A stretch of DNA of 35,693 nucleotides from a virus. The notes beneath the pieces were generated by a model. The model was not told the DNA's origin. It worked only from the letters and a program-made list of their open reading frames with translations, and did no database searches. Shown here in pieces: positions 6,044 to 34,056 of this stretch (position 1 is the stretch's first letter; every line of letters starts with the position of its first letter). The position numbers were made by a program, and so were the translations under genes. The stretch is from positions 1-35,693 of IMG/VR virus record IMGVR_UViG_3300032516_005626; one strand, given 5' to 3'.

Positions 6044-6080
6044 AGGCCTAGGAGTCTGCCACTTCTAGGCCTTTTCTTTT
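6044..6080 (+). terminator. Rho-independent terminator after DUF932 gene
   Basis: A 12-bp stem (AGGCCTAGGAGT/ACTTCTAGGCCT, one G-U) with loop CTGCC is followed by TTTCTTTT, 26 nt past the DUF932 stop. Confidence 0.9.
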
Positions 6081-6088
6081 GGGTAAAT

Positions 6089-6120
6089 AAAAAAGGAGAT
6101 AGGCTTCCATACCCATCTCC
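6089..6120 (-). terminator. Rho-independent terminator of the leftward operon
   Basis: On the minus strand, GGAGAT...ATCTCC, extended by inner G-C and G-U pairs, is followed by six T's. It lies 29 nt past the stop of the metallophosphoesterase gene and faces the DUF932 terminator. It therefore ends the long leftward transcript. Confidence 0.85.
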
Positions 6121-6148
6121 CCACCGGAAAGGAAAGTAAGATGATTTG

Positions 6149-8672: not shown

Positions 8673-8751
8673 TTCATCTCCCTTTCTAATTAAGTAAATT
8701 TCTCCATCTCCTTTCATCTCCCTTTCTAATTAAGTAAATTTCTCCATCTCC
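8672..8751. repeat. 40-bp tandem duplication at a gene junction
   Basis: Two identical 40-bp units (8672-8711, 8712-8751) lie head to tail. Each unit carries, on the minus strand, the last codons and stop of the upstream glycosyltransferase plus an AGGGAG ribosome binding site. The second site feeds the true ATG of the downstream gene. Confidence 0.95.
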
Positions 8752-9445
8752 TTTGAATATGATATCGAGTTAAGCTTCCTTTCGGCACTCTTTTTGCCTT
8801 ACTCAACAATTCTTGTTTTTCTTCTTTCTTAACAGGTTCTGCATCATATTTTGGTAAAGGATTATTATTTCCCTTATCTGGAACTCTTCTTGATGCTTGA
8901 TAATGCTTAATTACTGGTTCCTTTACATCCTGCATATAATCAAAGATTGTACAATACTCTTCGGGTAAAACGTGATAAGGAATTTCACGCAAAACTCTAG
9001 ATAAAGCGACCTGATCCCAAAGATTGCCTCCTTCTCGACATATCTCAATCCACTTATCTAAAATACCTTCAACTATAGAATTATTTTTCAAAAAAATAGT
9101 TCCTGACAACATTTCAAATCCAGCACTTCTACCCCGTTTTTTATGGTCCAAAAGATGTACTGCAACATTAACGTCCGAACGTGCTACTAATTCATCAAAC
9201 AAATCAGGGGGACGACAAAATTCCGCATCTACATCTACATAAACTAAAGAAGCGGGTTTGAATTTTTCTAACATTGCTTTTAGGAATGTGGGTTTGTATT
9301 GAGTGTTTTTGTACCAATCTCCCTGATTTTCTATCGGAGCAATATAATAAGGGATTTGGAACCGCATCAAAGAAGCAATAAGTCTCTTTGCTTCCAACTC
9401 GTAAAAAGTACTGGCAGTAAAATATCCTACAACAAGATAATTCAT
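8726..9445 (-). CDS. Putative GT-A glycosyltransferase
   Basis: The 239-residue protein looks like a nucleotide-diphospho-sugar transferase: an N-terminal MNYLVVGYFTASTFYELEAK, YKPTFLKAMLEKF near residue 52, and the DxD-type metal site VYVDVDAEF near 68-76. SGTIFLKNN near 114 and NLWDQVALSRVL near 141 also fit (the WDQ block of the nucleotide-diphospho-sugar transferase domain). The tail is very basic (SKAKRVPKGSLTRYHIQRRW). GGAGA precedes the ATG and the gap to the upstream stop is 1 nt. Donor and acceptor are unknown. Confidence 0.75.
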   Translation of the reverse strand: MNYLVVGYFTASTFYELEAKRLIASLMRFQIPYYIAPIENQGDWYKNTQYKPTFLKAMLEKFKPASLVYVDVDAEFCRPPDLFDELVARSDVNVAVHLLDHKKRGRSAGFEMLSGTIFLKNNSIVEGILDKWIEICREGGNLWDQVALSRVLREIPYHVLPEEYCTIFDYMQDVKEPVIKHYQASRRVPDKGNNNPLPKYDAEPVKKEEKQELLSKAKRVPKGSLTRYHIQRRWRNLLN

Positions 9446-9446
9446 A

Positions 9447-10274
9447 TCACATCTCCAAAATTTGTTCTGATATAGGAGGAATTCTTAAATCTTTACTAAG
9501 ATCAGAATTAGAACTTAAAGTTCTGTCAACTTTCCAACCAAACTCTTTTGGTTCAATATCCAAACTCAAATCAAATCTATTAGAAATCATTTTTAAAAGC
9601 TCATATTTGTTTACTCTTGTTGGAGAAAATACATGAAACAACCCTGGAGTATACATAATATTTTGATCAATGATTTTCTGACAAATTCTAGCATAAGTTG
9701 CTGTCGTGATACCATTCCAATAGTGGTTAGTAAAACCAGTTACCTTCTTGCCTTTTTGAGACTTCGCCCATTCAACCAAACTAGCATTATTATGTAATTC
9801 CTCTCCTATTATACTCGTCCGAAGAGTCATTGCCCAATCTTCAGGTTCCCCCAAACATTTACTCCTACCATAGATATCATTGCAATCGTGTGGATCATCC
9901 TCTGTATAATTATCATCTTTTCCAGAATAAACGCAATCGGTAGTAATATGAATCAACCGAATGTTATGCTCTTCGCAATAAGCTTCTAACTGATGAGGAA
10001 ATACTGAATTTATCAAAATAGTGTTTGCAATTCCAACTTTTTCTACAAAAGGTTTAATAATCCCGATACAATTTATCACGTAATCTGCATCAAGAGGAAT
10101 TTTACAAAGAGTATGTTCTTTAAGAGGCAGTTCAAATAAAATGTTATGGCTGCTATAAGCCAATTTTGGATCTCTAACTGAAAGCCAAACATTCTCTTCT
10201 CCATAAGCATTTAACATATATTTGCCTACAGCTGAACCAAGCATTCCGGAAGCACCTAAAACTACAATTTTCAT
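9447..10274 (-). CDS. dTDP-4-dehydrorhamnose reductase-like SDR (RmlD-like)
   Basis: The 275-residue protein is an extended short-chain dehydrogenase of the RmlD type. It has the Rossmann glycine motif GASGMLG at residues 7-13, NCIGIIKP near 69, TTDCVYSG with the catalytic Thr/Ser region near 112, and the YGRSK (YxxxK) near 135. RmlD reduces dTDP-4-keto-6-deoxy sugars with NAD(P)H. AGGAG lies before the ATG. The RmlC-like gene follows upstream at 12 nt, as in rhamnose operons. RmlA and RmlB are not obvious here, so the substrate may come from the host or the nearby SDR. Confidence 0.85.
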   Translation of the reverse strand: MKIVVLGASGMLGSAVGKYMLNAYGEENVWLSVRDPKLAYSSHNILFELPLKEHTLCKIPLDADYVINCIGIIKPFVEKVGIANTILINSVFPHQLEAYCEEHNIRLIHITTDCVYSGKDDNYTEDDPHDCNDIYGRSKCLGEPEDWAMTLRTSIIGEELHNNASLVEWAKSQKGKKVTGFTNHYWNGITTATYARICQKIIDQNIMYTPGLFHVFSPTRVNKYELLKMISNRFDLSLDIEPKEFGWKVDRTLSSNSDLSKDLRIPPISEQILEM

Positions 10275-10286
10275 AAATTTCTCCTA

Positions 10287-10763
10287 CTAATAGTAATCTA
10301 TATCCCAAATTTTTGAAGAAGCTATATCCCAAGGAATGCGAAAATCGTCCCCCTTAGCTTCTATTAAAGTTTTGGAAGATAAGAACATTAATTTTGTATC
10401 TGCAGTCAGTGTTTTAAACCCATTAAAATATCCTGGAGGAATAAACAATGCTTGAGGTTTTCTATCGGAAAGAATATATTTAACTGGAGCTAAAACCCAA
10501 TCTGCCGGACTTAGATCTTTTTTCTTTAATTGTATTTCAAAATCTTCAGTTTTTATTAAATAAAATAGAGCCGCTCCTTGAAAAATATAAACCATTTTTG
10601 CTTCCGTTTGGTGTCCATGAAAAGCCCGTATATAACCTTGTTGATGATTTTGAACTATATAAAACCGTTTGGGAACAAACCCTTCTAAATCATTAATAAA
10701 AGAAAGCTGCCCTCGAACATCAACAGCTAAACCACCTTCAATTATTTTAGGTTGTTCTATCAT
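10287..10763 (-). CDS. RmlC-like cupin, dTDP-sugar 3,5-epimerase-like
   Basis: The 158-residue cupin shows DVRGQLSFINDLEGFVPKRF, the blocks GYIRAFHGHQTEAKMVYIFQ and FIPPGYFNGFKTL. These match the sugar 3,5-epimerase fold, including the RAFHGH strand with the catalytic-type His and the PPGYxxGF block. Relatives epimerise or isomerise dTDP-4-keto-6-deoxy hexoses (RmlC, FdtA/WxcM types). I start at the second ATG (10763): AGGAG is 6 nt upstream and the start overlaps the previous stop as ATGA. The ATG at 10769 lies only 1 nt from AGGAG. It probably supplies substrate to the RmlD-like neighbour. Confidence 0.8.
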   Translation of the reverse strand: MIEQPKIIEGGLAVDVRGQLSFINDLEGFVPKRFYIVQNHQQGYIRAFHGHQTEAKMVYIFQGAALFYLIKTEDFEIQLKKKDLSPADWVLAPVKYILSDRKPQALFIPPGYFNGFKTLTADTKLMFLSSKTLIEAKGDDFRIPWDIASSKIWDIDYY

Positions 10764-11713
10764 AACCATCTCCTATAAATATTTTCAATATATGCTGTAT
10801 TTGAATAAGTTGGGCTTCCTAAATTCTTTATACGATCTTCTCTAACCAAATTAACAATTTCTTGAATCCCTTCTGACAACTTAATATACTCTGGAATTGG
10901 CAAACATAAATCTTGCCACCGCTCTATTTTAACTCGATAATTTCTTTGATCCTCAAATGTCATTTCTACTTTTTCTATTTCGCAATTTGGAACCACATTT
11001 TTAATTTCTTCTGCTATCTCATGAATTATACAATTGAAAGCCGCAAGATTGTACAAACCTTTAATTTGTCCTACAATACCTGCTTCGATTGCTCTCGCTA
11101 CATCCAACACGTGAATTAGAGGTCTCCACTGGCTTCCACCAAATACGGTTAATTTTTGTCCTCTAGCAGCTTTCATCGCAAGAACATTTACAACAAGATC
11201 TAATCGAATACGAGAATAAGTGTCACCTAGTCCAAATAATGTACCTAGTCGAAATATTAAAGATCGATCTGCCGCCTTTTCCAAAATATATCTTTCGGCT
11301 GCAAGTTTTGTTTTTGCATAAACAGAAAGAGGATTTGTAACAGCCTCTTCATCAATTAACTCACTGTTGATCCCATAAACTGAACAAGTACTTGGATAAA
11401 CTATGAATCCATCATAATGATCAACAAACCATTTAACAGCATCTTCATTTATTGCTTGAGTAAGATAAGGATCAGTTGCACAAGCTGCATCCCCAACAAC
11501 TGCTGCTAACCAAACTACAAAATCAAATTTGGATAAAACACTATACAGTTTTTCTCTATCTCTTATATCTCCATAAATAAACTTAACAGGCTTTAAATAC
11601 CTTTCCTCATAAGCTAGGATATCATAAACTGTGATATCATGTCCTGCTTGTAATAAAACATCAGTAGTTATTCCACCAACATAACCAGCACCGCCGACTA
11701 TTAGGATTTTCAT
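10760..11713 (-). CDS. NAD-dependent nucleotide-sugar epimerase/dehydratase
   Basis: The 317-residue protein is an extended SDR. It has GGAGYVG at residues 7-13, YGDIRDREKL near 47, WLAAVVGD near 68, PSTCSVYG near 107 and the catalytic YAKTK near 132-136, followed by IFRLGTLFGLG. RPLIHVLDVARAI near 203 is the substrate-binding block of UDP-glucose 4-epimerase and dTDP-glucose 4,6-dehydratase relatives. The exact reaction cannot be set from sequence. AAGGAG precedes the ATG. It overlaps the RmlC-like gene by 4 nt and lies 12 nt after the UDP-GlcNAc 2-epimerase, so the four sugar genes form one block. Confidence 0.88.
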   Translation of the reverse strand: MKILIVGGAGYVGGITTDVLLQAGHDITVYDILAYEERYLKPVKFIYGDIRDREKLYSVLSKFDFVVWLAAVVGDAACATDPYLTQAINEDAVKWFVDHYDGFIVYPSTCSVYGINSELIDEEAVTNPLSVYAKTKLAAERYILEKAADRSLIFRLGTLFGLGDTYSRIRLDLVVNVLAMKAARGQKLTVFGGSQWRPLIHVLDVARAIEAGIVGQIKGLYNLAAFNCIIHEIAEEIKNVVPNCEIEKVEMTFEDQRNYRVKIERWQDLCLPIPEYIKLSEGIQEIVNLVREDRIKNLGSPTYSNTAYIENIYRRWL

Positions 11714-11725
11714 CCTATTTCTCCT

Positions 11726-12820
11726 TTATAATAATGTTTCTAAAATAGAAACGATTCTTTCAGATGTGTTTCCATTTCCTAACCAATCAGTTCGGGCAAT
11801 AAAATTGACAGTTTTCATGCTATCTAACCAATTTAAACAATCACGCCAAGAACCATTCCAAGCAGTTTGAACATTTAACATTTTTGAACATCCATATTTC
11901 ACAGATTCGGGCCTTTCAGTCGAAATTCGAGGAACTACAACTGGAGTATTTAATAAAGCCGGTTCTTCTTGTGCGGTACCAGAATCAGAAATCATAAATA
12001 CAGAATCATATTGGGCTTGTAAATATTGTTGATAGGACATTAAAGGAACCCATTTTACCCATCTCATATTTAATTCTGCATTTTCAATTGCTGTTCGAGT
12101 TCTTCCAAACGATATCATTTGTATAGGAAGTTGAAATCTCACAGCACAATCATTTGCAAAATCTAAAATATTTTGCAAATTTTGGGGAGATTTTATATTT
12201 TCTGGCCGATGAATATCTACAAGGATTTTATCTAATTTCTTCGGATTCAAGTGCATTTTAGGAAGAAATTGATTTACAACTTCAACTATTGTGTTCCCCA
12301 CAACATGAATTTTATTTGGTGGAATATTTTCCGCAATTAATTTTTCCTCGTAATTCTTATGATAGGCAAACAGAAAATCACACATTTGATCGCAACATAT
12401 CCGATTTATCTCCTCTGGCATATTCATGTCGTAAGATCGCATCCCAGCTTCAATATGTCCGATTCTATATCCCTCTTTTCTAAGAGGAATTGAAGCTAAA
12501 GCTGAATTCGAATCCCCAAGAAACAAAATAATATCAGGTTTTGGACACTTTCCAAATCTTAGTAAATCAATTATTTCTATTGAAAGAACATTAACTTGAT
12601 TAAAATGCTCCCTTCCAGAAGCTCCAATATTTAGATTAAAATCTGGTTTGCGAATTTCTAGTTCATCAAAGAAAACATCAGACAGCATTTTATCATAATG
12701 TTGTCCGCTATGTACTAAAATATGATCTAAATATTTAGAAGAATCCAATTTCCTAAAAACTTCAGACATCCGAATAAAATCAGGTCTGATTCCTGTAAGA
12801 GTCATTACTACCCTTTTCAT
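11726..12820 (-). CDS. wecB: UDP-N-acetylglucosamine 2-epimerase (non-hydrolysing)
   Basis: At 364 residues the protein matches the normal size of WecB/MnaA. Family motifs are in order: TGIRPDFIRM near residue 9, VHSGQHYDKMLSDVFFDEL near 36, LFLGDSNSALA near 100, GHIEAGMRSYDMNMPEEINR near 121, DIHRPEN near 207, and SDSGTAQEEPALL near 278, then RPESV. The enzyme interconverts UDP-GlcNAc and UDP-ManNAc, which feeds ManNAc, ManNAcA or nonulosonate pathways. The DNA is AT-rich like its neighbours, so any transfer is old. It sits between an SDR and a methyltransferase in a glycan gene block. Confidence 0.9.
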   Translation of the reverse strand: MKRVVMTLTGIRPDFIRMSEVFRKLDSSKYLDHILVHSGQHYDKMLSDVFFDELEIRKPDFNLNIGASGREHFNQVNVLSIEIIDLLRFGKCPKPDIILFLGDSNSALASIPLRKEGYRIGHIEAGMRSYDMNMPEEINRICCDQMCDFLFAYHKNYEEKLIAENIPPNKIHVVGNTIVEVVNQFLPKMHLNPKKLDKILVDIHRPENIKSPQNLQNILDFANDCAVRFQLPIQMISFGRTRTAIENAELNMRWVKWVPLMSYQQYLQAQYDSVFMISDSGTAQEEPALLNTPVVVPRISTERPESVKYGCSKMLNVQTAWNGSWRDCLNWLDSMKTVNFIARTDWLGNGNTSERIVSILETLL

Positions 12821-12829
12821 TTTTAACCT

Positions 12830-14038
12830 TCACAACTGATTCAAAATATTCTTAAAAGCCAATTCTACTCTGTGAGAATCATTGGAAACAATTGAATTTT
12901 CTATTTCTTCTATACTAAATGAATCTAAGCATAGATTGGAATCTATTAAGGTACTCACCCAAAGTTTAGCGTGTCTTTCATCAAGACCCTTAATAGGATA
13001 AATTTGATTCTTGTCTACAATACGAATTTCTCCGGACCTAAAAATCAATTTATTTCCAAGAGCAATATCAATATCAATATGCCCCTGTCGAGCCAAATAT
13101 ATCTGTAGTTCACAACCTATTTTAACCAATTTTCTTACATCATTCAAAAGTTGCCATTCTGGTTGTAAATAGGCCTTTTCACAACAACCTATATAATGAT
13201 CTCCAAGTTTGATCAAACATTTAATACCAGAACTCTTTTCAAATAAACTTGCTAATTGGAGGCATTGAGGTTGACAACCAATAGGATATATTTTACCAAA
13301 AACTAATTCATCTTCAAAATATGCAAGGAAAAGAGTAGAATGTATATTCCAGCCTAATCTAAAAGTATATTCAATAGGCAAATCGTATAATTGAACTTCT
13401 TTAAAAGTTGAAATATCGGTTCTCTTCTTTAATAAAACTATATATCTTCCAGGAATTGGAGAAGGAACTTTCTTTAAAATATCAAAAAATTCCTGAGCTT
13501 TCTTAGAAAAACAATTCCAATTAAATTGATCAACACCTACTTTTACTAAATCATTCATCTGAGGATCTTCAAAATCAAATCCCCCTTCTAACAAAACTAA
13601 ATCTGTACTTAAAATAGCCAATTTATCAATCCAATCCCAATTGCCCCCAGAATCAACAAACATATAATGAGGACCATTTCCTATAAAAATTCTATCAAAA
13701 TAAGTATCTAATAAAGGAAAATTGCGGAAAGAAATACAATCAAATTTTGTTTTAACTTCTGAACCCTGCAATATTCTGCATAAATCAATAGCTTCTGGAT
13801 TATAATCAATTCCTCTTACTTCTAAACCAGACTTTGCAGCCAACAACGAAAAATATCCTTTTGCACAACCTATATCTAACAGCCGAGTTCCAGAAGTAAA
13901 GAATTCTGGGGCAACTTCATCAAAGGCTTTCATTCGAACAATTAAACTATTGGTAGGAACTAATCCTTCCAATTGAAAAGTTAGAGAAGCGGGTTCTATC
14001 TGAGCATCTAATAATCTTTGTTTTTCTTCTAAATTCAT
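12830..14038 (-). CDS. SAM methyltransferase fused to a kinase-like domain
   Basis: Residues about 50-140 form a class I SAM methyltransferase: RLLDIGCAKGYFSLL (motif I, 52-66) and GIDYNPEAIDLC. The second half (about 220-402) has YTFRLGWNIHSTLF, then GHIDIDIALGN at 319-329 and GEIRIVDKNQIY around 337-348. These resemble the catalytic loop (HxDxxxxN) and metal-binding DxD of LPS or aminoglycoside kinase-like folds. The product may therefore methylate and phosphorylate a sugar, as in glycan chain-capping enzymes. The methyltransferase is clear; the kinase part is my inference from two short motifs. Confidence 0.7.
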   Translation of the reverse strand: MNLEEKQRLLDAQIEPASLTFQLEGLVPTNSLIVRMKAFDEVAPEFFTSGTRLLDIGCAKGYFSLLAAKSGLEVRGIDYNPEAIDLCRILQGSEVKTKFDCISFRNFPLLDTYFDRIFIGNGPHYMFVDSGGNWDWIDKLAILSTDLVLLEGGFDFEDPQMNDLVKVGVDQFNWNCFSKKAQEFFDILKKVPSPIPGRYIVLLKKRTDISTFKEVQLYDLPIEYTFRLGWNIHSTLFLAYFEDELVFGKIYPIGCQPQCLQLASLFEKSSGIKCLIKLGDHYIGCCEKAYLQPEWQLLNDVRKLVKIGCELQIYLARQGHIDIDIALGNKLIFRSGEIRIVDKNQIYPIKGLDERHAKLWVSTLIDSNLCLDSFSIEEIENSIVSNDSHRVELAFKNILNQL

Positions 14039-14047
14039 GCAACTTCT

Positions 14048-14941
14048 CTAATTTAATTGAACCAATATTTTTTCCAAATCTTCCACACTTCCTATCCGGT
14101 TTGTTTTGTTCCACTCAAAAGCATCTTCTGTCATCCGGATATATTGCTCTCTTGAAAAACTGAGTAAATATTTGGATAATTCATCAATATCTTTGAAATC
14201 TCTATAATCAATAAACAATTCTTTAGGAACATGCTGTTCTATATTATAACAACCCCAATATATGGGAACTGTTTTTGCCTTAAAGCAATCAAACATTCTA
14301 TCTGTCATGAAATCCCAACTCCAATATTCATGATAAAGAGATTCAAAGCACAGTCGAAACTTATATTTGCTAATCAAATTTAGCAATGTTTGGTGTCCAG
14401 GCTTATAAACATCTGTAGGACCTTGGTAGAGACTGCCACCCCATGGAGAAGGTGCGAATACATGTTTTACCATTGGTTCTATGGTCAAATTCTCCATTAC
14501 CTCTTTTCGCTTGGGTACAATATGTCCCCCTCGATTGTCTGGTTTAGTGTACAACTTATTTATGCAGCAAATCCCATTTATCTTATTATCATAAGAGACT
14601 AGTTCTGTAGCTTCATAAAAATTATTGAAAAACGTACATCCCTGAATAAGATTCAAATTCAATCGATGTTTATTTTCCAGAAAGAATTTTGAATTCCACG
14701 TAATAACAGAATCAAATTGACTAAGAATCTCTGAATCCCATTGTTCTGGAATTTCATTAAATGGTTCTAACTGAAGTAAATGTCGAAAACCAAAGGTAGG
14801 TAAATTCATCTTTGGAAAAAATCCATCCAGTCGAGGTCTATCCGGTTTTAGATTAAAGGCCACGTGACGGTATTTATTGATTAAATAGACCCACTCATCC
14901 TGTTGCAATCTCAATTCAAAATCTGCTGATCTCTTTATCAT
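14048..14941 (-). CDS. GT10 family (fucosyltransferase-like) glycosyltransferase
   Basis: The 297-residue protein has the GT10 C-terminal signature: YKFRLCFES near residue 193, then WDFMTDRMFDCFKAKTVPIY, WGCYNIEQHVPKELFIDYRD and a conserved ELSKYL. Family members move L-fucose from GDP-fucose to GlcNAc or similar sugars in an inverting GT-B fold. The N-terminal acceptor domain is divergent (FGFRHLLQLEPFNEIPEQW). No GDP-fucose synthesis genes are seen, so the donor may come from the host or be a different 6-deoxy sugar. The ribosome binding site is weak and the start is 1 nt from the upstream stop. Confidence 0.82.
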   Translation of the reverse strand: MIKRSADFELRLQQDEWVYLINKYRHVAFNLKPDRPRLDGFFPKMNLPTFGFRHLLQLEPFNEIPEQWDSEILSQFDSVITWNSKFFLENKHRLNLNLIQGCTFFNNFYEATELVSYDNKINGICCINKLYTKPDNRGGHIVPKRKEVMENLTIEPMVKHVFAPSPWGGSLYQGPTDVYKPGHQTLLNLISKYKFRLCFESLYHEYWSWDFMTDRMFDCFKAKTVPIYWGCYNIEQHVPKELFIDYRDFKDIDELSKYLLSFSREQYIRMTEDAFEWNKTNRIGSVEDLEKILVQLN

Positions 14942-14942
14942 A

Positions 14943-15662
14943 TTATACTTTTTCTAAAGAAGTTAAATACTCTTCCACATATTCCTTACTTGTTTTCATA
15001 GGATAAAACTTTTGAAGTTCACTAACATCAAAATTATAATTTTCAACAACTAATTCTGAACCCGGAAAAAGTTGAATAGGGAAGTTTCTTAACTGAAATA
15101 AATCCTCAATAACAATAGATTCTGAAGCTCCCACATTAATTATCTCTTCGGATCTCCAGTTATCAACTAAATAATCTATTATATTTGCTACCTCTTCAAT
15201 AGAAATAAAATTGTAAACCGACTTCACAGATGTGCGTATAGGTTTACCTTGTATCCAATCAAATACAACATTCTTAGAAAGTCCATCTCCTACCAGCCCA
15301 CCCAATCTCAAAATACAGTAATCGAAACGAGTTGCTTGACGTTCAGTAATTCGTTTTATCTCTCCATAGTTAGTATCTTCCGTGACACAAATAGAAGAGA
15401 TATGCAATAATTTTAACATGGGATTAAAATTTTGCATTTCTAATATACGGTCAAATATAACTTTCTCATGATCCCAAGCAGCATCAAAATCTTTTTCAAC
15501 TCCATACTTTTTAGAAACTCCCGCACAATTAATTACCAAATCAAAATATTCTGGCTTAAAAGGACTTTTAGAAGAAGCAACGACAGTCAAATCATGCTTC
15601 TGGGCTAGTTTTTTACTTACCGCACTGCCAACAAATCCAAGACCCAAAAGACAAATTTTCAT
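14943..15662 (-). CDS. NAD(P)-dependent sugar epimerase/reductase-like SDR
   Basis: The 239-residue protein begins MKICLLGLGFVGSAV, a Rossmann GxGxxG, followed by DLVINCAGVSKKYG near residue 44, LLHISSICV near 82, and LRLGGLVGDG. It is a divergent extended SDR. Where the catalytic Tyr and Lys would sit the segment reads TNYGEIKRITER, a YxxxK-compatible stretch. The start at 15662 overlaps the previous stop as ATGA; the longer frame only shadows the upstream gene. The substrate is unknown, presumably a nucleotide sugar given its neighbours. Confidence 0.75.
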   Translation of the reverse strand: MKICLLGLGFVGSAVSKKLAQKHDLTVVASSKSPFKPEYFDLVINCAGVSKKYGVEKDFDAAWDHEKVIFDRILEMQNFNPMLKLLHISSICVTEDTNYGEIKRITERQATRFDYCILRLGGLVGDGLSKNVVFDWIQGKPIRTSVKSVYNFISIEEVANIIDYLVDNWRSEEIINVGASESIVIEDLFQLRNFPIQLFPGSELVVENYNFDVSELQKFYPMKTSKEYVEEYLTSLEKV

Positions 15663-16210
15663 AAAATTGCTTCCCAGTAAGCAAATGGTGGGATTGCTAA
15701 AAATCTTCCCCTGGAGTTGCATAAAAGTTCATGTACAGCTTTCATAACATGATTTACAGAATACAAATCATAATCATGAAAAACAATTCTTCCACATCGT
15801 TTTACCGTTTCAATATCAAAAACCACATTTTCATATAAATGAGCAGCATCTATATAAGCGAAATCAAAACTAAGAGCAGAAACAGCAGCTCGAACTTCTT
15901 GACTATTTTTTACTATAACTGAGGTTATCCGATCTTTTACTTGAAAGTGTTCCCAGATAGAAAATCTTACTGGTGTATCTCGAATATCAAAAGTTGTTAT
16001 ATGATTGCAAAACCCTGCAAGCATCACAGTAGATATGCCACAACAAGTACCAATCTCTACACCGTGCTTCATTATACCCGGCTCGAAAGCCTCTTCCATT
16101 ATATATTGAAATATTTCTTCTCCGCTCCCAACATCATGTAAAGCACTTCCATCGGGTTGTGATAATACGTCTTTTCCAAAATGATTTATTACTTCTTCTC
16201 TTATACTCAT
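15659..16210 (-). CDS. Class I SAM-dependent methyltransferase
   Basis: The 183-residue protein shows GVEIGTCCGISTVML near residues 50-64 (motif I), ITTFDIRDTPV, DFAYIDAAHLYENVVFDIE near 116 and GRIVFHDYDLYS near 140. This is the Methyltransf_24-like layout often found in glycan or cephalosporin-type O-methyltransferases. I chose the ATG at 16210, with AGGAA 6 nt upstream; the 16237 start is a GTG inside the previous gene. It overlaps the SDR downstream by 4 nt. It probably methylates a sugar hydroxyl; the acceptor is unknown. Confidence 0.82.
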   Translation of the reverse strand: MSIREEVINHFGKDVLSQPDGSALHDVGSGEEIFQYIMEEAFEPGIMKHGVEIGTCCGISTVMLAGFCNHITTFDIRDTPVRFSIWEHFQVKDRITSVIVKNSQEVRAAVSALSFDFAYIDAAHLYENVVFDIETVKRCGRIVFHDYDLYSVNHVMKAVHELLCNSRGRFLAIPPFAYWEAIL

Positions 16211-16218
16211 TTCAGTTC

Positions 16219-17865: not shown

Positions 17866-18686
17866 ACTTTATTCTCAAAAAATATGGGAAATTCTTGATG
17901 ACAAGAATTCGTTTGAATTCCGTATAAATCTTCTACTTTTATTCTTTTATTTTCATCAAATAATTTGGCTAATTCTTCTATTAAATAGTATTGTAGTTCG
18001 CCAGCCCGGTTTTCTGGGTGAAAACTTACATTATTCAAAGGCAAACTAAACATTCTTGAATATTCATAGCAGCAAAGATAAGGCTTTGATACAGCAAAAT
18101 CATTTCTGTGTTGATTCAAAGTTCCCTCTACCATTACTAAACAAGGAACATTTTTATCCGTCATATAAGGCAGGATGTCCTCTGATCGATAAATTGAGCT
18201 GGAAACTTCCAAAGGATATCCAAAATCAAATTCTGCTTCTGTCCAATTATAACAATTCTTTACTCCTTCAGGAGAAAATACGGGAATTTTCTGTTCAGAC
18301 CTTAACATGTAACAATAATTTGTATTTTTCCCAAGTCTATATGAAAATCCTAAAACGTGTGGATTTTCTAAACAAGAAATAGCGTCCATTACAAAACAAG
18401 GAGAGGTTGTAATATTATCGTCAACTTGGAAAAATATATATTTATATAAAGATAAAATATCCTTAATCTGTTCAACCAAATAAAATTCTTTAATGAAGAC
18501 AACAGTAGGAAATTCTTTCCTTAATTGTTCATACTGCCTATCATAAATTTCATTTGAGGCTTTGTAAAGAACGCATAAATCGACAAATTCTCCAGCATCC
18601 AAAAAATTGGTTTGAAAAGATTCCAACATTGCCCTTAATTGCAACGCACGATCTTTGCTGAAAATAATTGAAACGGCTGTCTTCAT
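17862..18686 (-). CDS. GT2-like glycosyltransferase
   Basis: The 274-residue protein starts VSIIFSKDRALQLRAMLES, an N-terminal GT-A motif, and has FFQVDDNITT near residue 90 (DxD-like) and EAEFDFGYPLEVSSSIYRS near 150. NQHRNDF near 192 and FHPENRAGELQYYL lie farther down. It resembles phage and bacterial proteins that mix GT2 features with an HxxN-type motif. GGAG precedes the ATG, and it overlaps the radical SAM gene by 4 nt. Donor and acceptor are unknown. Confidence 0.7.
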   Translation of the reverse strand: MKTAVSIIFSKDRALQLRAMLESFQTNFLDAGEFVDLCVLYKASNEIYDRQYEQLRKEFPTVVFIKEFYLVEQIKDILSLYKYIFFQVDDNITTSPCFVMDAISCLENPHVLGFSYRLGKNTNYCYMLRSEQKIPVFSPEGVKNCYNWTEAEFDFGYPLEVSSSIYRSEDILPYMTDKNVPCLVMVEGTLNQHRNDFAVSKPYLCCYEYSRMFSLPLNNVSFHPENRAGELQYYLIEELAKLFDENKRIKVEDLYGIQTNSCHQEFPIFFENKV

Positions 18687-19285
18687 TTCTTACTCCAACA
18701 GCAGAAAATAAAATTATAATTATAGTGCATCTGATGAGTAACAGATAATCTCTCAAAAATATTTTCCATCTTTCTTTTAGCTTCAGGAACTACATCATGA
18801 AATTGAATTTGAAGATGATCAAATTTAGTTATAAGATTCTGCGACAACATTTCTTCCAGCAGTTCATATTCTCCACCTTCACAATTAATTTGAGCCAAAT
18901 CAATATTTATAGTAAAAAGATGTTTTTCGCAAAGAATTTTCCCAATATGCCGAATAGAAATCATTCGAGAATTTCCTTTTAAACATCCAATTCCTGAAGC
19001 ATCTCCATTAACAAAAATTTCTATATTCTCATCTCTTGCCCCCAATCCAAAATTAAATAATCCTACTTTCGTTCTTCCAGCAAGTTTCTTTGTTGCTTCC
19101 TCATAAAATTCTGGAACGGGTTCAAAAGCATAAATATAAGGATCATATTTTTTAGATATCTCAGAAGCCCATAGTCCTTTGTAAGCTCCTATCTCTAAAA
19201 CGATACTATCCGGGGTTAAATATGGATGAAAATACATAGCCTCTCGACCACCTTCAGCTTCCCACTTATCATGCAAATCAACCAT
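18683..19285 (-). CDS. FkbM-family methyltransferase
   Basis: The 200-residue protein has VLEIGAYKGLWASEI near residue 30, YAFEPVPEFYEEA near 52, NFGLGARDENIEIF, and INCEGGEYELLE near 130. HLQIQFHD follows. These are the ordered motifs of FkbM methyltransferases, which O-methylate sugars and polyketides. I start at the ATG at 19285 (MVDLHDKW), with AGAGGG 6 nt upstream; it overlaps the upstream gene by 8 nt. The two upstream ATGs have no good ribosome binding site. Confidence 0.85.
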   Translation of the reverse strand: MVDLHDKWEAEGGREAMYFHPYLTPDSIVLEIGAYKGLWASEISKKYDPYIYAFEPVPEFYEEATKKLAGRTKVGLFNFGLGARDENIEIFVNGDASGIGCLKGNSRMISIRHIGKILCEKHLFTINIDLAQINCEGGEYELLEEMLSQNLITKFDHLQIQFHDVVPEAKRKMENIFERLSVTHQMHYNYNFIFCCWSKK

Positions 19286-20114
19286 TGCCGCCCTCTCCCC
19301 AAATCTCATGATAGTCATAATTTCTTATAAAGATAACAGGATTTTGATTTGCAAATACCAAACGCATCTTTTTTAATTGTTCCAAATTTACATCTCTATC
19401 ATGATATAAATGTATGGCTGTTACATCATAATCAGGAACTAAATGTTGTTTAATTTGCACCAATCGACAAAACATGTCCGAATCTTCATAACCATAATAC
19501 AAATATTGTTCATCATATCCTCGCAAATTGAACAATACTTCTGTCTTTACAGCATAAGCATAATGAAAATATGAGGAAAAATTAACTCTACCATCTTCAG
19601 CCAAAACTACACATTTAGCATAATTTGCATCCAATACTTTAACGGGATCCATTTTTAAACATGCAGAATATTTAAGAATATCAAAATTCTTTTCAAGCAT
19701 TAGTTCTGCACTTAATTTCTCATCCAACACATAAATATTTCCTGCTCGCCAAGGCTCTTCAGAAGTACAAATATTACCAATAAAGTCTCCCAGAAGAACA
19801 ATCTCAGGATCCTTTTGGAAAAAGAATTCAGATTGACATCTTTTTATAGCATAGTTTCTAATGAACCCACCATTTCTTGAATCGTTCGACTGTCTATGTA
19901 AAGTAAAATAATAAACATTTTGAGATTGCAAATGACTAAAATCTATATCGATGCCATCATTACCAATTATGACAACCCAATCATCTTTAGGCATTCTCGT
20001 TCTTATCTGAGAAATAGAAAATTCTAAAGATTCTTTTTTACCGTAATTAGGTATAAAAATACACAACTTTCGTTTTGTAATTGACCAATCGAAATTTTGC
20101 GTAATTTTCAACAT
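19278..20114 (-). CDS. GT-A galactosyltransferase-type glycosyltransferase, paralog A
   Basis: The 278-residue protein starts with TQNFDWSITKRKLCIFIPNY and carries DDWVVIIGNDGIDIDFSHL, FIRNYAIKRCQSEFFFQKDP and RGYDEQYLYYGYEDSDMFCR. The ED(S)D block matches the C-terminal domain of GT2/GT7-type galactosyltransferases. The same blocks in the same order occur in the gene at 21627-22508, so the two are diverged duplicates. The ribosome binding site is weak and the start is 1 nt from the GT32 gene. Confidence 0.78.
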   Translation of the reverse strand: MLKITQNFDWSITKRKLCIFIPNYGKKESLEFSISQIRTRMPKDDWVVIIGNDGIDIDFSHLQSQNVYYFTLHRQSNDSRNGGFIRNYAIKRCQSEFFFQKDPEIVLLGDFIGNICTSEEPWRAGNIYVLDEKLSAELMLEKNFDILKYSACLKMDPVKVLDANYAKCVVLAEDGRVNFSSYFHYAYAVKTEVLFNLRGYDEQYLYYGYEDSDMFCRLVQIKQHLVPDYDVTAIHLYHDRDVNLEQLKKMRLVFANQNPVIFIRNYDYHEIWGEGGNG

Positions 20115-20115
20115 C

Positions 20116-20934
20116 TTAACTTAAAGCCTTCTTCAAATAATAGCAAACAATGTTGTCGTAGTTCATATAATTCTCGTCAGTTAACAAGGCCTGATATTTT
20201 GCTGAGGTGGGGTGCCCCACATAAAAATGGATTCCAATAGTTTCTAATTTCAATTCAGTTAGAGAAATTTCAGCGGGTCGTTCCCAAATCTTGTTAGGCC
20301 AACGAATTGGGTAAACTATATTATTCGAAAAATTACATACTTCTAAAGCAGTTTCATCCAAATATTTCTCATAAAATGGACTACCTATAGCTTGGTAATC
20401 ATAGTCATGAATATGTTGCTGAGCATAATATTGCATGTGAGCCCAAGTTGTATTGTCAGGAGCAGACATCAATAAACCAATACTATGATAAGGTTTGCCG
20501 GTAGGAATATCTTTCTGATAACAAATATAAGCTTTATGATCTGTTTGCAAAAAAGCGTGTTCCATAGGACGGAAAAATATAATGTCCATATCGAGCCACA
20601 AACCAAAATGGTTCGCTAACAAATACAAACGATAATAATCTGATTTTGTTACCTCTGGAAGACTGTTAGATAGATCATATAATTCCATATTTACTATTCT
20701 AACTTCATTTACTAATTCTTGAGCCTGAGAAAAATAATCCTTGCCACTAAGATCATTTTTATTCTCTTTTCCAGGCCAGTTATAGTTTTTGCTGATATCT
20801 TCTCTTCTTGGGACACATAAAATTATTTTCCAACTGGGATTATGTTTCCGAAAAGAATAGAGTGTCATATACCGGAGGAAAGGCAATGTCTCTCCACCCC
20901 AGTAAAAGAAAACTTGTTTTGGTATATTTTTCAT
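20116..20934 (-). CDS. GT32-type glycosyltransferase (DXD sugar-binding)
   Basis: The 272-residue protein begins IPKQVFFYWGGETLPFLRYM and has TKSDYYRLYLLANHFGLWLD followed by MDIIFFRP, the classical GT32/OCH1-like DxD signature. HPTSAKYQ occurs near residue 240. Members transfer mannose, galactose or other sugars from nucleotide donors. No Shine-Dalgarno motif is visible before its ATG. The next open frame upstream belongs to a broken methyltransferase 19 nt away. Confidence 0.85.
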   Translation of the reverse strand: MKNIPKQVFFYWGGETLPFLRYMTLYSFRKHNPSWKIILCVPRREDISKNYNWPGKENKNDLSGKDYFSQAQELVNEVRIVNMELYDLSNSLPEVTKSDYYRLYLLANHFGLWLDMDIIFFRPMEHAFLQTDHKAYICYQKDIPTGKPYHSIGLLMSAPDNTTWAHMQYYAQQHIHDYDYQAIGSPFYEKYLDETALEVCNFSNNIVYPIRWPNKIWERPAEISLTELKLETIGIHFYVGHPTSAKYQALLTDENYMNYDNIVCYYLKKALS

Positions 20935-20952
20935 ATTAATTAAACTCTACCA

Positions 20953-21630
20953 TTATACAATATCCAATAATTTTGTAAACCAAATCTGAACCATGGGTCT
21001 TTCTACTTCACGCAAAGCACTTTCCCAAAGCAAATCTTTTGCATTAGTTAACATATCTTCCATATGAGTATCTTGATATTTTTCAGCTAAAATTTTAATA
21101 TCAAAAGTCCCATTATCGTTCCCATATTCTTTAACATCTAAGACTTTATAGTTTAAATTTTCTAATGTGTAAACAAATCTTTCCTTAAACCATTGATCGA
21201 TATGAAATGACCACTTATCTTCTTCATGAGAACCTGCTATATGCCGGACTAATTTCATCTTATCGGAAAGAAGCATTGTTTCAGAACCAATTCCTCAACA
21301 ACAGGCTTTTGCGTCCGGGGTTGTTATAAGCAAAGTCCCTTTAACCTTCAACCAACGATTCCAATTAATTAATAATCCTAAAGATATTCCTCGACTAAAA
21401 TGCTCAAAAACGTGATGTAACTGGATAGAATCAATCGACTTAGTAGGCAAATCGATTTTAACAATATCCATAGAAAAATCTGCGGCTGATTTAAATAAAT
21501 TAAATGGCTGTTCTTCCTGAGGAAAGTCTATATTTATGCAATCCTTAAAATGATTTCTTCCACAACCTAAATGCAAATTTACCGGATTTGGTTTGCATGC
21601 TTCAATAAGTTTTATCAACTCTTCATTCAT
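20953..21630 (-). pseudogene. SAM methyltransferase interrupted by an in-frame UGA
   Basis: Two frame-matched segments form one methyltransferase of about 225 residues. The first (21295-21630) has VNLHLGCGRNHFKDCINIDF (motif I), QLHHVFEHFSRG and LLITTPDAKACC, then TGA at 21295-21297. The same frame continues GIGSETMLLSDKMKLVRHIA, then GSHEEDKWSFHIDQWF, the usual tail of this methyltransferase type. The frames agree exactly, so only one codon is at fault. Possible explanations are nonsense mutation, readthrough (the phage encodes tRNA-Trp), or reinitiation at the ATG at 21276. The start overlaps the upstream stop as ATGA. Confidence 0.8.
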
Positions 21631-22508
21631 ACGCCTTCTCCCCAACTTAAAGGATTTCGAATAATTTGTTTAGGTTGTTTTTCTACAAATATTTGCTTCA
21701 TATCTTGAAGATATGGGTCCACTGTCGAAGGATGATGCAAATGAATACTTGTACAATTATAATCTGGAGTGATGGAATATCCTTTCGCCATTAATCTGCA
21801 AATCATATCAGAATCTTCATACCCATAACTAGTAAAAGATTCATCATACCCTCGCATCTCTTGAAGAACTTTCGTTTCAATTCCTAAGGCATAGGATAAC
21901 CAATTTGATATATTGTGGGCACCACTTAAAACATCTTTATGCAATTTCTCTGGATCTGATAATCCATTAATGCCTAAAGTAATTTGAAAAATTCCTCCAC
22001 CTAAAGCCTTATACTCTAGATCTCCTTGAACTTCAGGATTTAAATTGTGCTCTTTCAAAAAAGGAATAATTTCTGAAACACCGCGTTCAAGAATATCTCT
22101 TGTTGGACCTTTTGGAAAACCCAACACATATCCTGTTTTCCAACCCAGTCCACGTTCTGCAGCACGTTTTAAATAATCTCCGTTTACAATAATTTCGGGG
22201 TCTTTTTGAAAAAATATCTTAGATTGGCATCTTTTTATAGCATAATTTCGGATAAATGCGCTGTTCCGACATTTACTTCTTCCAGTATCTAAACTAAAAG
22301 AATATACACCTAAATCTTTCAGATGACTAAAATCATAATGACATAAATCGTTTCCAATTATAATAACCCAGTCATCTTTAGGCAGATGGGTAACCATGTT
22401 CCTAATTCCAAATTCAACCTGTTCAGGTCTATGGTAGTTAGGAATAAACATAACTATCCTACGGTCAGTTATTGACCAGTCAAAATTTTGTTGAACTGTT
22501 AACCCCAC
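21627..22508 (-). CDS. GT-A galactosyltransferase-type glycosyltransferase, paralog B
   Basis: The 293-residue protein parallels the gene at 19278: QQNFDWSITDRRIVMFIPNY, DDWVIIIGNDLCHYDFSHL, FIRNYAIKRCQSKIFFQKDP, and RGYDESFTSYGYEDSDMICR. Middle sections differ, consistent with a changed acceptor or donor. It seems to start at a GTG (22508), overlapping the previous gene's stop; there is no better ATG. It overlaps the methyltransferase downstream as ATGA. Confidence 0.78.
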   Translation of the reverse strand: MGLTVQQNFDWSITDRRIVMFIPNYHRPEQVEFGIRNMVTHLPKDDWVIIIGNDLCHYDFSHLKDLGVYSFSLDTGRSKCRNSAFIRNYAIKRCQSKIFFQKDPEIIVNGDYLKRAAERGLGWKTGYVLGFPKGPTRDILERGVSEIIPFLKEHNLNPEVQGDLEYKALGGGIFQITLGINGLSDPEKLHKDVLSGAHNISNWLSYALGIETKVLQEMRGYDESFTSYGYEDSDMICRLMAKGYSITPDYNCTSIHLHHPSTVDPYLQDMKQIFVEKQPKQIIRNPLSWGEGV

Positions 22509-23281
22509 CTTGAAGTGTCTCGCTTTCCATTATACAATTTAAATAGACGTTCCTTGTTCCTGTTCCATTCGGGGCAGCCCCCATGATATTTAGAACTTTT
22601 AGAATGCCATTGATGAATAACAAAACCCTTTGATGGATCAAGAATTTCAACCTTTAATCCACTTTCTTCTATTCTAAATAAAAATTCGTCGTCATCAAAA
22701 GCATAACCATCTGCAAAAAGTTCATCAAATCCCCCCAACTGATTCATGTTATTCCGAGACATAGCAGACAAAAAATGATATGGTATTTTACACCAACATT
22801 TATTTTTGGCTTCAGAAACTGTTTTAACTATTTTATCTGCCAATTCTACATTGTTGGAAATATTCAAAAATTCTTCAAATCTCGGATATTGATAAGATAT
22901 TTCAGTTAAACTAAGACAACAAGAAGCAACCAAATAATTTTGATTAGTCACATGTTCTCGAAAATATCCCAGTAAATCTCCTCCCACATGCACACATTCC
23001 GGAGTCTGAAGGCAAATGATATCCCCTTGAGCTTCTTTTATACCTATATTAAATGGAACACATGGATTTATCCACCAATGTTTTTCTGGGGGAATATATA
23101 TCACTCGAATAGGTAGGTTGATTCCTTGAATTGCTTGTGTTGCTAATTGATCTGGATTACTAGCATCATCAATAATAATAATTTCTAAGTCAGATTTATT
23201 TTGACAATAATGCTCAATACTCCGCAAAGTTATTCTTGTTTGTTGCAATCTATTATGATAAGTCATCACCAAGGAAATCAT
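22499..23281 (-). CDS. GT2 family glycosyltransferase
   Basis: The 260-residue protein begins MISLVMTYHNRLQQTRITLR and has LEIIIIDDASNPDQ near residue 34, INPCVPFNIGIKEAQGDIIC near 70, LGGFDELFADGYAFDDDEFL near 190. It is a standard GT2 (GT-A fold) with the IDDAS and DDxE features. The start at 23281 has GAGAGA about 5 nt upstream; the longer frame to 23365 has none. Its upstream neighbour is an HNH endonuclease, which breaks an otherwise continuous glycosyltransferase run. Confidence 0.85.
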   Translation of the reverse strand: MISLVMTYHNRLQQTRITLRSIEHYCQNKSDLEIIIIDDASNPDQLATQAIQGINLPIRVIYIPPEKHWWINPCVPFNIGIKEAQGDIICLQTPECVHVGGDLLGYFREHVTNQNYLVASCCLSLTEISYQYPRFEEFLNISNNVELADKIVKTVSEAKNKCWCKIPYHFLSAMSRNNMNQLGGFDELFADGYAFDDDEFLFRIEESGLKVEILDPSKGFVIHQWHSKSSKYHGGCPEWNRNKERLFKLYNGKRDTSRWG

Positions 23282-23374
23282 TTTCTCTCTTTCAATAGAT
23301 TTTTTAAATATTGTTTTTATTAAACCATTGGAAAATATAATTGATCCAAAAAATAGTGTATCCAAAAATCCCTA

Positions 23375-23992
23375 TTATGATTTCTTTATATGACAGCTTC
23401 TACATAAACTTATAAAATTATCAAAATTAGTACAATCATTAGTTTCTTCATCATAATGAATATGATGAACATCTAAAACCCGACCATTTTCTTGTTCAAT
23501 TTTACCACAACTAGTGACTTGACAAATATAATTATCCCGTTCTCTAATTTTTTGCCTAAATTCTTCTGTGAAATTAGAATGATATGATGGATAATTTCCA
23601 CTACAACAGGAACCATCTATATAATTTGGATTATTTTCACCTATTAGTTTACCTTTCCTAGAAACAGAAATTTTTGCAATAGTTTCTTCAGTATGGTGTT
23701 TCCCATACATTGGATGATTTTCTCCAGACATTTTATCTATAGCTTCCAAAGAATGGGTTTTTCCATACATTGGACCATTTTCTCCAGAAAAATCTGCGTG
23801 ATTTTCTTTTATTTTAGCAATAGATTTAACAGAATGGTGTTTCCCATAAAAAGGGTGTTTTTCTCCTCGGATCCCATATGCAGGACACAATTCTCCAGTT
23901 CTACCAAACATTGGATTCTTTTCCCCCTTTTTAGAATTTGATATATTGGTTATCCACTGGGCTCTTTTAATTGGGTCTTTAGGAGAAGACAT
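23375..23992 (-). CDS. HNH homing-type endonuclease with NUMOD3 repeats
   Basis: The 205-residue protein has four or five NUMOD3-type DNA-binding motifs: GEKNPMFGR near residue 23, GEKHPFYGK near 43, GENGPMYGK near 70, GENHPMYGK near 90 and a degenerate GENNPNY. The C-terminal HNH domain follows (FRQKIRERDNYICQVTSCGK, then VLDVHHIHYDEETNDCTNFD and LCRSCH). The two CxxC-type pairs (CQVTSC, CRSC) are likely structural zinc ligands. It stands alone between glycosyltransferase-type genes and looks like a mobile insertion. The ribosome binding site is weak (AAAGAAAG). No intron structure could be recognised. Confidence 0.88.
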   Translation of the reverse strand: MSSPKDPIKRAQWITNISNSKKGEKNPMFGRTGELCPAYGIRGEKHPFYGKHHSVKSIAKIKENHADFSGENGPMYGKTHSLEAIDKMSGENHPMYGKHHTEETIAKISVSRKGKLIGENNPNYIDGSCCSGNYPSYHSNFTEEFRQKIRERDNYICQVTSCGKIEQENGRVLDVHHIHYDEETNDCTNFDNFISLCRSCHIKKS

Positions 23993-24037
23993 TCTATACT
24001 TTCTTTTTCATAAAAACTAAATAAAATCTTAAAAATT

Positions 24038-24715
24038 TCATAAAATATTCCCTACATTCACATACAAAATGTATTTATTCAATTGACTTATATGAGAAGA
24101 ACTAAACACACATATTCCTCTCTCTTTCAAAATTTGAAAAGCTTCAGGATAAGGAGTTAAAAACTCATCTAGTTTATTTTGATAATCTAATGGATCTTTC
24201 TTTGAATAATCCTCATGATAGTGTGTTTCCCCATACGAAGTAGTAAAATCCAACCCTAAAAGATATATTTTTGTATAACCTAAAACAACAGCTAATTGTA
24301 AAGCAGAATAGCCAGAGTCACTACCATAATGAAAATCTTCAAAAGTTTTACCAATTCCACCATATTTTGTAGGATGAATTATTTTATCAAACAAAGTAAG
24401 ATCATACTTTAAACCAAATTTTTTGTCAATACAATGCTGCTCATCAATAAAAGTTTTGCGGTCCGGACTTAAAGCCAAAACAAAGTATTTTTCAGATGGA
24501 TGGTGAGTAAATTTTCTTCTAATTCCCAAATCTAAAGAATTCAAAACTCCACTTTTTAATAACCAAGTAAAATCCGTTGTAATAAAATACTTAGCTTTTG
24601 GTAACTTAAAAATGGATTGATTTATGGCAATAACATCCTGATTTAAAAGAATCTGAAAATCAAATTCTTTCAAACTTGGACCACCGCCTACAATATAACA
24701 TGCACCATCACTCAA
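24038..24715 (-). CDS. MptE/DUF115-like protein, paralog A
   Basis: The 225-residue protein has YIVGGGPSLKEFDFQ near residue 7, INQSIFKLPKAKYFITTDFT near 31 and SGYSALQLAVVLGYTKIYLL followed by GLDFTTSYGETHYHEDY. This is the layout of the 6-hydroxymethylpterin diphosphokinase MptE-like family (DUF115), related to the domain in Maf proteins that attach nonulosonic acids to flagellin. Phage copies are common and uncharacterised. It starts at a TTG (24715) behind AGGG. Its neighbour 24747-25490 is a diverged duplicate. Confidence 0.75.
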   Translation of the reverse strand: MSDGACYIVGGGPSLKEFDFQILLNQDVIAINQSIFKLPKAKYFITTDFTWLLKSGVLNSLDLGIRRKFTHHPSEKYFVLALSPDRKTFIDEQHCIDKKFGLKYDLTLFDKIIHPTKYGGIGKTFEDFHYGSDSGYSALQLAVVLGYTKIYLLGLDFTTSYGETHYHEDYSKKDPLDYQNKLDEFLTPYPEAFQILKERGICVFSSSHISQLNKYILYVNVGNIL

Positions 24716-24746
24716 AATTAGCCCTAATTTAGTTATACGAAGGAAT

Positions 24747-25490
24747 TTAGAAGCTTAAAAATGTTTTTATGGAAGATTTAGGAAATATTTGTAGGCTGCT
24801 ATCTGAACTTAAATTTACAACTTCTATACCCATTTCTAATATAGTAGGAGCAAATTCTTCTATGCAAGTTCGAAATTTGTCTAAATTAACCACAAAAGAT
24901 TTTTTATCTTGATTTGCGTATCCACTATGCCAATGAGTTTTTGAACCTTGAACCTTAAAATCATAACCCAATAAACCTATTCTTTTACAACCTAAAGCAA
25001 CAGCAAGCATTAAAGCTCCCATACCGCTATTATTCCCAGGATATAACCCCACATTTAAATCAAAACAAATTTCCTTCCTTGTTATTTCGTCCACAAAATA
25101 GATTCCTTCACAAAATCTATATGTGTGATCGTGCCGAATAAACAGTTTTATTCCACTATAAGCCAGCCATTCTTGGTGCAATTTATACTCTGGATCTCTC
25201 GGATTAACATTATTATACTGCACCAAATCGAAGAAATTATAATCCATTGCATAATTAACTTCTACAGAAAAACTTTGAAATGTCTTATTTATGCCTATGG
25301 TATGAAACCCCACAATTTGCCTGTAATCAAACCCTTCTAAGCTTGGGCCTCCACCCAATATAAAACATGTCTGGCCGGCCCAACTGTTGGAAGGAAGAAC
25401 ATCTGTAATTTTTTTAGCTAAACACCTACCATTTACAGGTTTAACTTTGACTACAGAAGTCCCATGAGAATGGTTAATTAAATTGCTCAT
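24747..25490 (-). CDS. MptE/DUF115-like protein, paralog B
   Basis: The 247-residue protein repeats the blocks of its neighbour: CFILGGGPSLEGFDYRQI near residue 42, INKTFQSFSVEVNYAMDYNF near 73, and NNSGMGALMLAVALGCKRIG followed by LLGYDFKV and THWHSGY. The N-terminal extension of about 35 residues is specific to it. No Shine-Dalgarno is visible. It is the first non-structural gene after the tail appendage genes and lies 12 nt from 25503-26555, so it is probably cotranscribed with tail genes. Confidence 0.75.
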   Translation of the reverse strand: MSNLINHSHGTSVVKVKPVNGRCLAKKITDVLPSNSWAGQTCFILGGGPSLEGFDYRQIVGFHTIGINKTFQSFSVEVNYAMDYNFFDLVQYNNVNPRDPEYKLHQEWLAYSGIKLFIRHDHTYRFCEGIYFVDEITRKEICFDLNVGLYPGNNSGMGALMLAVALGCKRIGLLGYDFKVQGSKTHWHSGYANQDKKSFVVNLDKFRTCIEEFAPTILEMGIEVVNLSSDSSLQIFPKSSIKTFLSF

Positions 25491-26555: not shown

Positions 26556-26573
26556 TTTATCTCCTTTTAACAA

Positions 26574-27785: not shown

Positions 27786-27795
27786 CTTATATCTC

Positions 27796-31062: not shown

Positions 31063-31070
31063 TTTTCAGC

Positions 31071-31577: not shown

Positions 31578-31589
31578 TTTAATCTCCTA

Positions 31590-33311: not shown

Positions 33312-33313
33312 TT

Positions 33314-33706: not shown

Positions 33707-33708
33707 AA

Positions 33709-34047: not shown

Positions 34048-34056
34048 ATTATTCTC

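Follow-up and report, generated by a model that had tools for sequence, protein, structure and literature searches.

A candidate virion glycosylation locus with an exchangeable interior beside the tail-fibre genes of an uncultured phage

The glycan block and its surroundings

The DNA analysed here (hereafter the window) is a 35.7-kb fragment from an uncultured virus (IMG/VR record IMGVR_UViG_3300032516_005626, 35,693 nucleotides), for which a near-identity search against phage records gave no match. Between positions 8726 and 25490 it carries a densely packed block of about 20 sugar-chain-building genes of glycosyltransferase, methyltransferase and sugar-nucleotide types, all on the minus strand. 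The first of these, DUF115a, starts 12 nt past the end of the tail-fibre-like gene TF1, and the block thus abuts the tail-fibre genes; an earlier note made from the letters of the sequence had described a one-strand run 12 nt behind tail appendage genes, and the gene coordinates bear this out. The same limits, from DUF115a to the glycosyltransferase gene GTa, delimit a frame that is conserved in related phages and encloses an exchanged cassette.

The frame genes comprise DUF115a (24747-25490, GT42/Maf-like) and DUF115b (24038-24715, GT42/CST-I-like) at the 5′ end and GTa (8726-9445) at the 3′ end. A match to CST-I at 25.5 bits (cut-off 25) was obtained for DUF115b, a gene that relatives carry too, and GTa scored under the Pfam cut-off. 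Five interior glycosyltransferases were assigned by Pfam or NCBIfam: a GT2 enzyme (22499-23365; PF00535, 5.4e-10), the two GT7C-like enzymes b (21627-22508; PF02709, 1.7e-6) and a (19278-20114; PF02709, 3.6e-5), a DXD glycosyltransferase of the Gly_transf_sug type (20116-20934; PF04488, 3.5e-5) and a member of the GT10 fucosyltransferase family (14048-14941; Pfam, 1.1e-15). GTb (17862-18686) is glycosyltransferase-like by inspection, with no family match and a relative, L050_08, at 46%; a total of at least seven glycosyltransferases, as first proposed, is therefore reached only if GTa is counted together with either GTb or the DUF115 proteins.

The sugar-nucleotide genes named in the earlier note were each recovered by Pfam, namely an RmlD-like reductase (9447-10274; 1e-18), an RmlC/FdtA-like cupin (10287-10769; 1.1e-7 and 7.9e-7, respectively), a UDP-GlcNAc 2-epimerase of WecB/CapG type (11726-12820; 3.6e-66; best PDB match 7ya2, CapG) and two SDR epimerase/dehydratases. 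SDR1 (10760-11713; 5.1e-31), a sugar-nucleotide dehydrogenase/epimerase, was closest to PDB 6vo6 (130 bits, against 61 for the next match), which we take to be C. jejuni Cj1427, and SDR2 (14943-15722; PF01370, 3.5e-7) probably starts at residue 21, with MKICLLGL. We rejected a textbook UDP-L-FucNAc pathway: the WecB homologue is CapG-like, but SDR1 is nearer to 6vo6 and no CapE-type dehydratase was found. Four methyltransferases had been predicted, and Pfam agrees: one of FkbM type (18683-19318; PF05050, 3.7e-9), a Methyltransf_24 protein (15659-16237; 2.7e-11), a Methyltransf_25 protein (12830-14038; 1.9e-8) whose C-terminal half has no assignment, and one that is split by a stop codon (20953-21645). 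The kinase-like domain ascribed to one of them found no support in Pfam or NCBIfam, and the Methyltransf_25 protein had no kinase match.

The radical SAM enzyme (16219-17865; Radical_SAM, 3.5e-17) was likewise correctly recognised at first sight, but the intein inside its gene was overlooked, as were a second intein, an internal NUMOD3/HNH gene and the stop codon in the methyltransferase. The radical SAM intein (17065-17604, 180 aa, C...FVEN|C; Intein_splicing, 3.9e-14) lies beside the GGGEP motif and has the splicing motifs, and an intein-free ortholog that is 71% identical exists (L050:3137-4231). Judged by its domains (NUMOD3, 1.3e-28; HNH, 5.7e-5), the homing-endonuclease-like gene at 23375-23992 is an insert that interrupts the block and not a glycan gene. 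The split methyltransferase consists of two open reading frames (ORFs; 21295-21645 and 20953-21276) that share one frame and are separated by a TGA at 21295-21297, and a weakly similar methyltransferase of 232 aa (L052_14) is uninterrupted. Stop-codon recoding was rejected because many other genes end normally with TGA, so the in-frame TGA may reflect a mutation, readthrough or an assembly error. The other intein-like insert (approximately 6647-7660, after ...TGD and before CHEGW) contains LAGLIDADG and lies in a calcineurin-like phosphoesterase gene downstream of the block (6149-8239, minus strand).

Upstream of the block, the tail module (25503-35691, minus strand) encodes a tail protein, PAAR, gp25, the baseplate J or wedge protein (BpJ; 31590-33311; phrog_219, 7.9e-61), an Ig-domain protein, TF3, TF2 and TF1. 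TF1 (25503-26573; Gp53-like_C, 2.4e-5) shares a PHROG with the virion structural protein TF2 (26574-27785; phrog_3398); TF3 (27796-29028) is conserved in the tail block by synteny, and the protein at 29029-31062 has two clear Ig domains. Just downstream of the block is a gene with a weak match to nucleoside deoxyribosyltransferases and, further along, a cREC_REC domain gene (2848-3195) overlaps a sigma-70 region 4 gene (2385-2879), with six tRNA genes nearby. Shuffled sequence contained promoter- and terminator-like sites at least as often as the window did. The terminator scan of the window found no such site between the tail and glycan genes; the strongest on the minus strand (6122-6093) is beyond the glycan block, within strong hairpins at 6044-6122 between convergent genes, and is the probable end of the unit.

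A conserved frame around an exchanged interior

Using BpJ as a marker of the phage backbone we collected 39 related loci; like the window, most of these are metagenome fragments. The DUF115a-DUF115b pair follows the tail genes in 15 related contigs that extend beyond them; tail gene and DUF115a usually overlap or lie a few nucleotides apart, and in L051 one unknown ORF separates the two. GTa is the last gene of the block in the window and in all 11 relatives that reach far enough, including G023. The block that the earlier note suggested seeking beside the tail genes of other phages thus recurs in related contigs as a frame, in the order tail gene, DUF115a, DUF115b, variable genes, GTa. Departures were seen in two distant relatives: the 11 kb available for L034 showed no DUF115 gene, and in L038 DUF115b lies near the tail, with DUF115a and GTa fused at the opposite end of the block. 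In L049 (16422-18023, 533 aa) DUF115b is apparently fused to a methyltransferase domain.

Grouping of the interior genes from the window and from nine complete relatives gave 64 families, of which 38 are singletons. Interior gene sharing was uncorrelated with BpJ identity (Spearman -0.02 over 91 pairs, which are not independent of one another), as illustrated by L045 and L047, with 83% BpJ identity but none of seven interior genes in common, and by G023 and L052, with 51% BpJ identity and nearly the whole cassette shared. Identity of DUF115a tracked that of BpJ (0.73, Mantel p 0.0005), with lower correlations for GTa (0.46, p 0.005), DUF115b (0.28, p 0.03) and TF1 (0.25, p 0.10), all values being uncorrected for phylogeny. 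The cassette is exchanged among phages independently of the baseplate backbone and the frame stays with the tail module; at the population level, conserved ends with an exchanged middle are what a serotype locus shows.

The sole relative of GTa among genome contigs was G023:C1 (L218; 179,096 bp), which is binned in a metagenome-assembled genome (MAG) of 'Candidatus Borrarchaeum weybense'. This contig is a phage contig of the window's clade, with a T4 portal, a prohead protease, a sheath protein, a DNA pol A fused to a UDG domain, a Tad3 domain and 11 tRNAs; the T4 portal and the prohead protease were seen in no other relative. We rejected an Asgard host, the contig being phage, and because the window encodes a sigma-70 region 4 protein a bacterial host with a misbinned contig appears likelier from the gene content.

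Frame enzymes and the target of the glycan

Outside the clade, a single-sequence scan of viral contigs with DUF115a found no relative, and an alignment-based scan succeeded. By alignment scans and profile searches, DUF115a and GTa were fused or at most 700 nt apart in 60 deduplicated contigs that lack the tail genes of the clade; in L054 (7776-9227), a distant relative, the two form one ORF. The capsid count was confined to the 47 loci in which four or more genes precede the pair; of these, 36 had a capsid gene within five genes upstream of it, against a background of 24% over all plus-strand genes of the same contigs, and in 24 loci the capsid gene was immediately upstream (background 6%). 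Loci from the same phage lineage are not independent in this count, though four capsid families are represented (PF25209, PF05065, SU10_MCP and phrog_247). The upstream capsid operons carried TerL, a head decoration gene and an MCP-type protein (PF25209), or an S78 protease, a PF05065 capsid gene and a head-tail connector, or SU10_MCP, or phrog_247. Within phage records GTa occurred once, in an uncultured huge phage. No description of the pair beside virion genes was found in open papers on DUF115/MptE-like proteins and phages, a search that mostly did not cover subscription journals, and the arrangement appears undescribed in the literature searched.

The model of GTa, with a predicted local distance difference test (pLDDT) score of 81, clearly predicts a GT-A fold, although the sequence falls short of the family threshold. 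Its best solved match was 2p72, a capsid-glycosylation enzyme of PBCV-1 (E 1.4e-8, template modelling (TM) score 0.59-0.68, 14% identity), followed by GT6-type enzymes; the best viral model matches were Fadolivirus and Tetraselmis virus 1 proteins at 32-33% identity, and the DxD motif is invariant in 10 sequences. For DUF115a (pLDDT 87) the best PDB fold was CstII (E 7e-5, TM 0.43-0.47), and the profile of DUF115b matched GT42 structures (E 3.4e-6). In sequence alignments a THxH motif, which may hold a conserved catalytic histidine, is invariant in 16 DUF115a sequences and varies little or not at all in either DUF115 family. With TM below 0.5, the model supports a GT42-like assignment of DUF115a at the superfamily level. 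Of the two proteins called DUF115/MptE-like in the earlier note, DUF115a is under the Pfam MptE cut-off (26.9 against 34.6 bits) yet has a CstII-like fold. The analogy with Maf enzymes drawn there is sound at this same level, as the central domain of Maf resembles CstII and Maf flagellin transferases of this fold act on Ser/Thr with CMP-nonulosonates or Kdo, CMP-Kdo being a usable donor (PMC11339370). NeuB and a CMP-nonulosonate synthetase (a PseF-like cytidylyltransferase) were found in the cassettes of two of 14 records; that of L044 encodes both (8839-9543, PseF-like; 10280-11128, NeuB), amounting to phage-encoded nonulosonate synthesis.

A simple hydropathy scan of 146 interior ORFs from 14 cassettes detected no membrane flippase, polymerase, ligase or exporter and no convincing transmembrane segment; applied to the E. 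coli K-12 locus as a positive control, the scan did pick out Wzx and Wzy. Because the cytosol is where the proteins of tailed phages are produced and assembled, such a soluble system fits virion proteins better than a surface polysaccharide. Both virion proteins and the host surface had been proposed as targets; the former are favoured because the DUF115a-GTa pair lies beside tail-fibre genes in the window and beside capsid genes of four families in other phages, and because no membrane protein for export or polymerisation was found, and the case for the host surface is weaker. The block ends are fixed, the middle is swapped and the end enzymes adjoin coat-protein genes elsewhere, so these phages probably coat their own particles with sugar. 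We consider it probable that the block is a virion glycosylation locus, in which glycans built in the cytosol are put on virion proteins and a swappable cassette varies their structure. As for the glycan first proposed, gene content and synteny support one that is phage-made, probably methylated and associated with the tail operon; its possible phosphorylation was not upheld.

By this scheme the WecB/CapG-type, SDR1, RmlC, RmlD, SDR2 and radical SAM enzymes, whose families are assigned, would supply nucleotide sugars in the host cytosol, by synthesis or by remodelling. The paired frame enzymes DUF115a, DUF115b and GTa would probably initiate the glycan or couple it to new virion proteins, most likely the tail-fibre or baseplate proteins encoded just upstream, after which the glycosyltransferases of the cassette would lengthen the chain and the methyltransferases cap it. 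The cassette is swapped between phages and the frame kept with the tail module; this would be expected if the glycan faced selection that shifts over time, for instance from receptors, defence or predators. We suggest more tentatively that DUF115a and GTa may be a pair of enzymes, widespread in tailed phages, that glycosylates the adjacent structural protein, capsid in several lineages and tail fibre here, with the pair of this clade bracketing a serotype-like cassette that would give variable glycotypes. GTa relatives in giant viruses hint, if this is true, at a shared viral protein-glycosylation toolkit.

Several points weigh against glycosylation of the virion. The fold match of DUF115a to CstII is below 0.5 in TM, and that of GTa to the PBCV-1 enzyme is weak on its own, at 14% identity, because GT-A folds resemble one another. 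NeuB and the CMP-synthetase are absent from the window's own cassette, and the DUF115 donor would consequently be supplied by the host or be another sugar. A glycan on such virions is so far predicted from genes, and synteny does not single out the acceptor protein; a search of the structural proteins for Ser/Thr-rich acceptor tails gave nothing distinctive.

The enzyme classes are also those of O-antigen loci, as would be expected if they altered host lipopolysaccharide or capsule during infection and so blocked superinfection. In its hypervariability the block resembles the host recognition cluster of pelagimyophages, for which the authors favoured this reading (PMC7029224; PMC7824862), and the membrane machinery could come from the host. 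Remodelling of the host surface nevertheless seems unlikely to us given 14 cassettes without any membrane protein and a frame pair that adjoins capsid genes in unrelated phages. Phage glycosyltransferases that act on DNA are known, and the deoxyribosyltransferase-like gene just downstream might point to decoration of modified bases; we regard this as very improbable, as no gene for a base hydroxymethylase or other base-modifying enzyme was recognised among the window's annotated ORFs (from an incomplete genome), the frame is linked with virion genes, and the sugar-nucleotide and methyltransferase genes are numerous and variable. Least probable is a secreted or small-molecule glycoside: natural-product clusters, too, contain radical SAM enzymes, methyltransferases and SDRs, and a second such cluster has been proposed in cyanophages (PMC7824862), but no exporter, peptide synthetase or polyketide synthase was seen, and the link of the DUF115a-GTa pair to capsid and tail genes would be left unexplained.

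Comparison with known systems

Virion glycosylation has been documented for only a handful of phages. Should virion proteins prove to be the substrate of the frame pair, changeable sugar coats would be carried by many environmental phages and could affect adsorption, defence and immune recognition. In mycobacteriophages, glycans are carried on capsid and tail-tube proteins (Freeman 2023, as cited in PMC12619734). By profile search, phage P1 has a tandem DUF115 pair in a late operon, pmgO-pmgP (L216, 79592-80778), so that the DUF115 part can be tested with a standard laboratory model. These genes are annotated solely as putative morphogenetic and are individually nonessential in a CRISPRi screen (PMC10695390); profile searches found no GTa relative in P1, and PmgQ was rejected as a counterpart for lack of a match.

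The DUF115/MptE fold is shared with GT42 sialyltransferases and with the Maf flagellin O-glycosyltransferases, which glycosylate protein Ser/Thr in the cytosol; unlike Maf, the window system lacks flagellar genes and the extra Maf domains, and nonulosonate synthesis is encoded in some relatives only. Chlorovirus PBCV-1 offers a similar fold for GTa (A064R) and also encodes its own glycosyltransferases and methyltransferases, and variable glycans define antigenic classes (PMC9614988). PBCV-1 is, however, a eukaryotic virus, GTa is only 14% identical to domain 1 of A064R, and the window is known from its genes alone.

Bacterial O-antigen and capsule serotype loci likewise have conserved ends and an exchangeable middle, and in the window's clade, too, interior exchange is independent of the flanking backbone. 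The clade differs in lacking Wzx, Wzy and a ligase, with neither an O-antigen-type flippase and polymerase nor an ABC exporter found among the 146 interior ORFs, and in having glycosyltransferases instead of housekeeping genes at its ends. Compared with serotype-conversion gtrABC, no GtrA-type membrane flippase or bactoprenol glycosyltransferase was found, the cassettes being without membrane proteins. Glycosyltransferase islands of large phages are usually taken as a means of altering the host surface, and those near tail fibres in pelagimyophages and cyanophages have been interpreted in this way (PMC7029224; PMC7824862). The pelagimyophage and cyanomyophage host recognition clusters and the P-SSM2 sugar clusters are, like the clade's locus, hypervariable islands of large myophages in which tail-fibre genes and glycosyltransferases are combined. 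The clade is set apart by its frame, its lack of membrane proteins and the occurrence of the pair beside capsid genes elsewhere, the published clusters not having been scanned individually for DUF115a and GTa. What is added over known islands is the DUF115a/DUF115b/GTa frame, a quantified decoupling of cassette and backbone, a system free of membrane components, and a frame pair that lies next to capsid genes.

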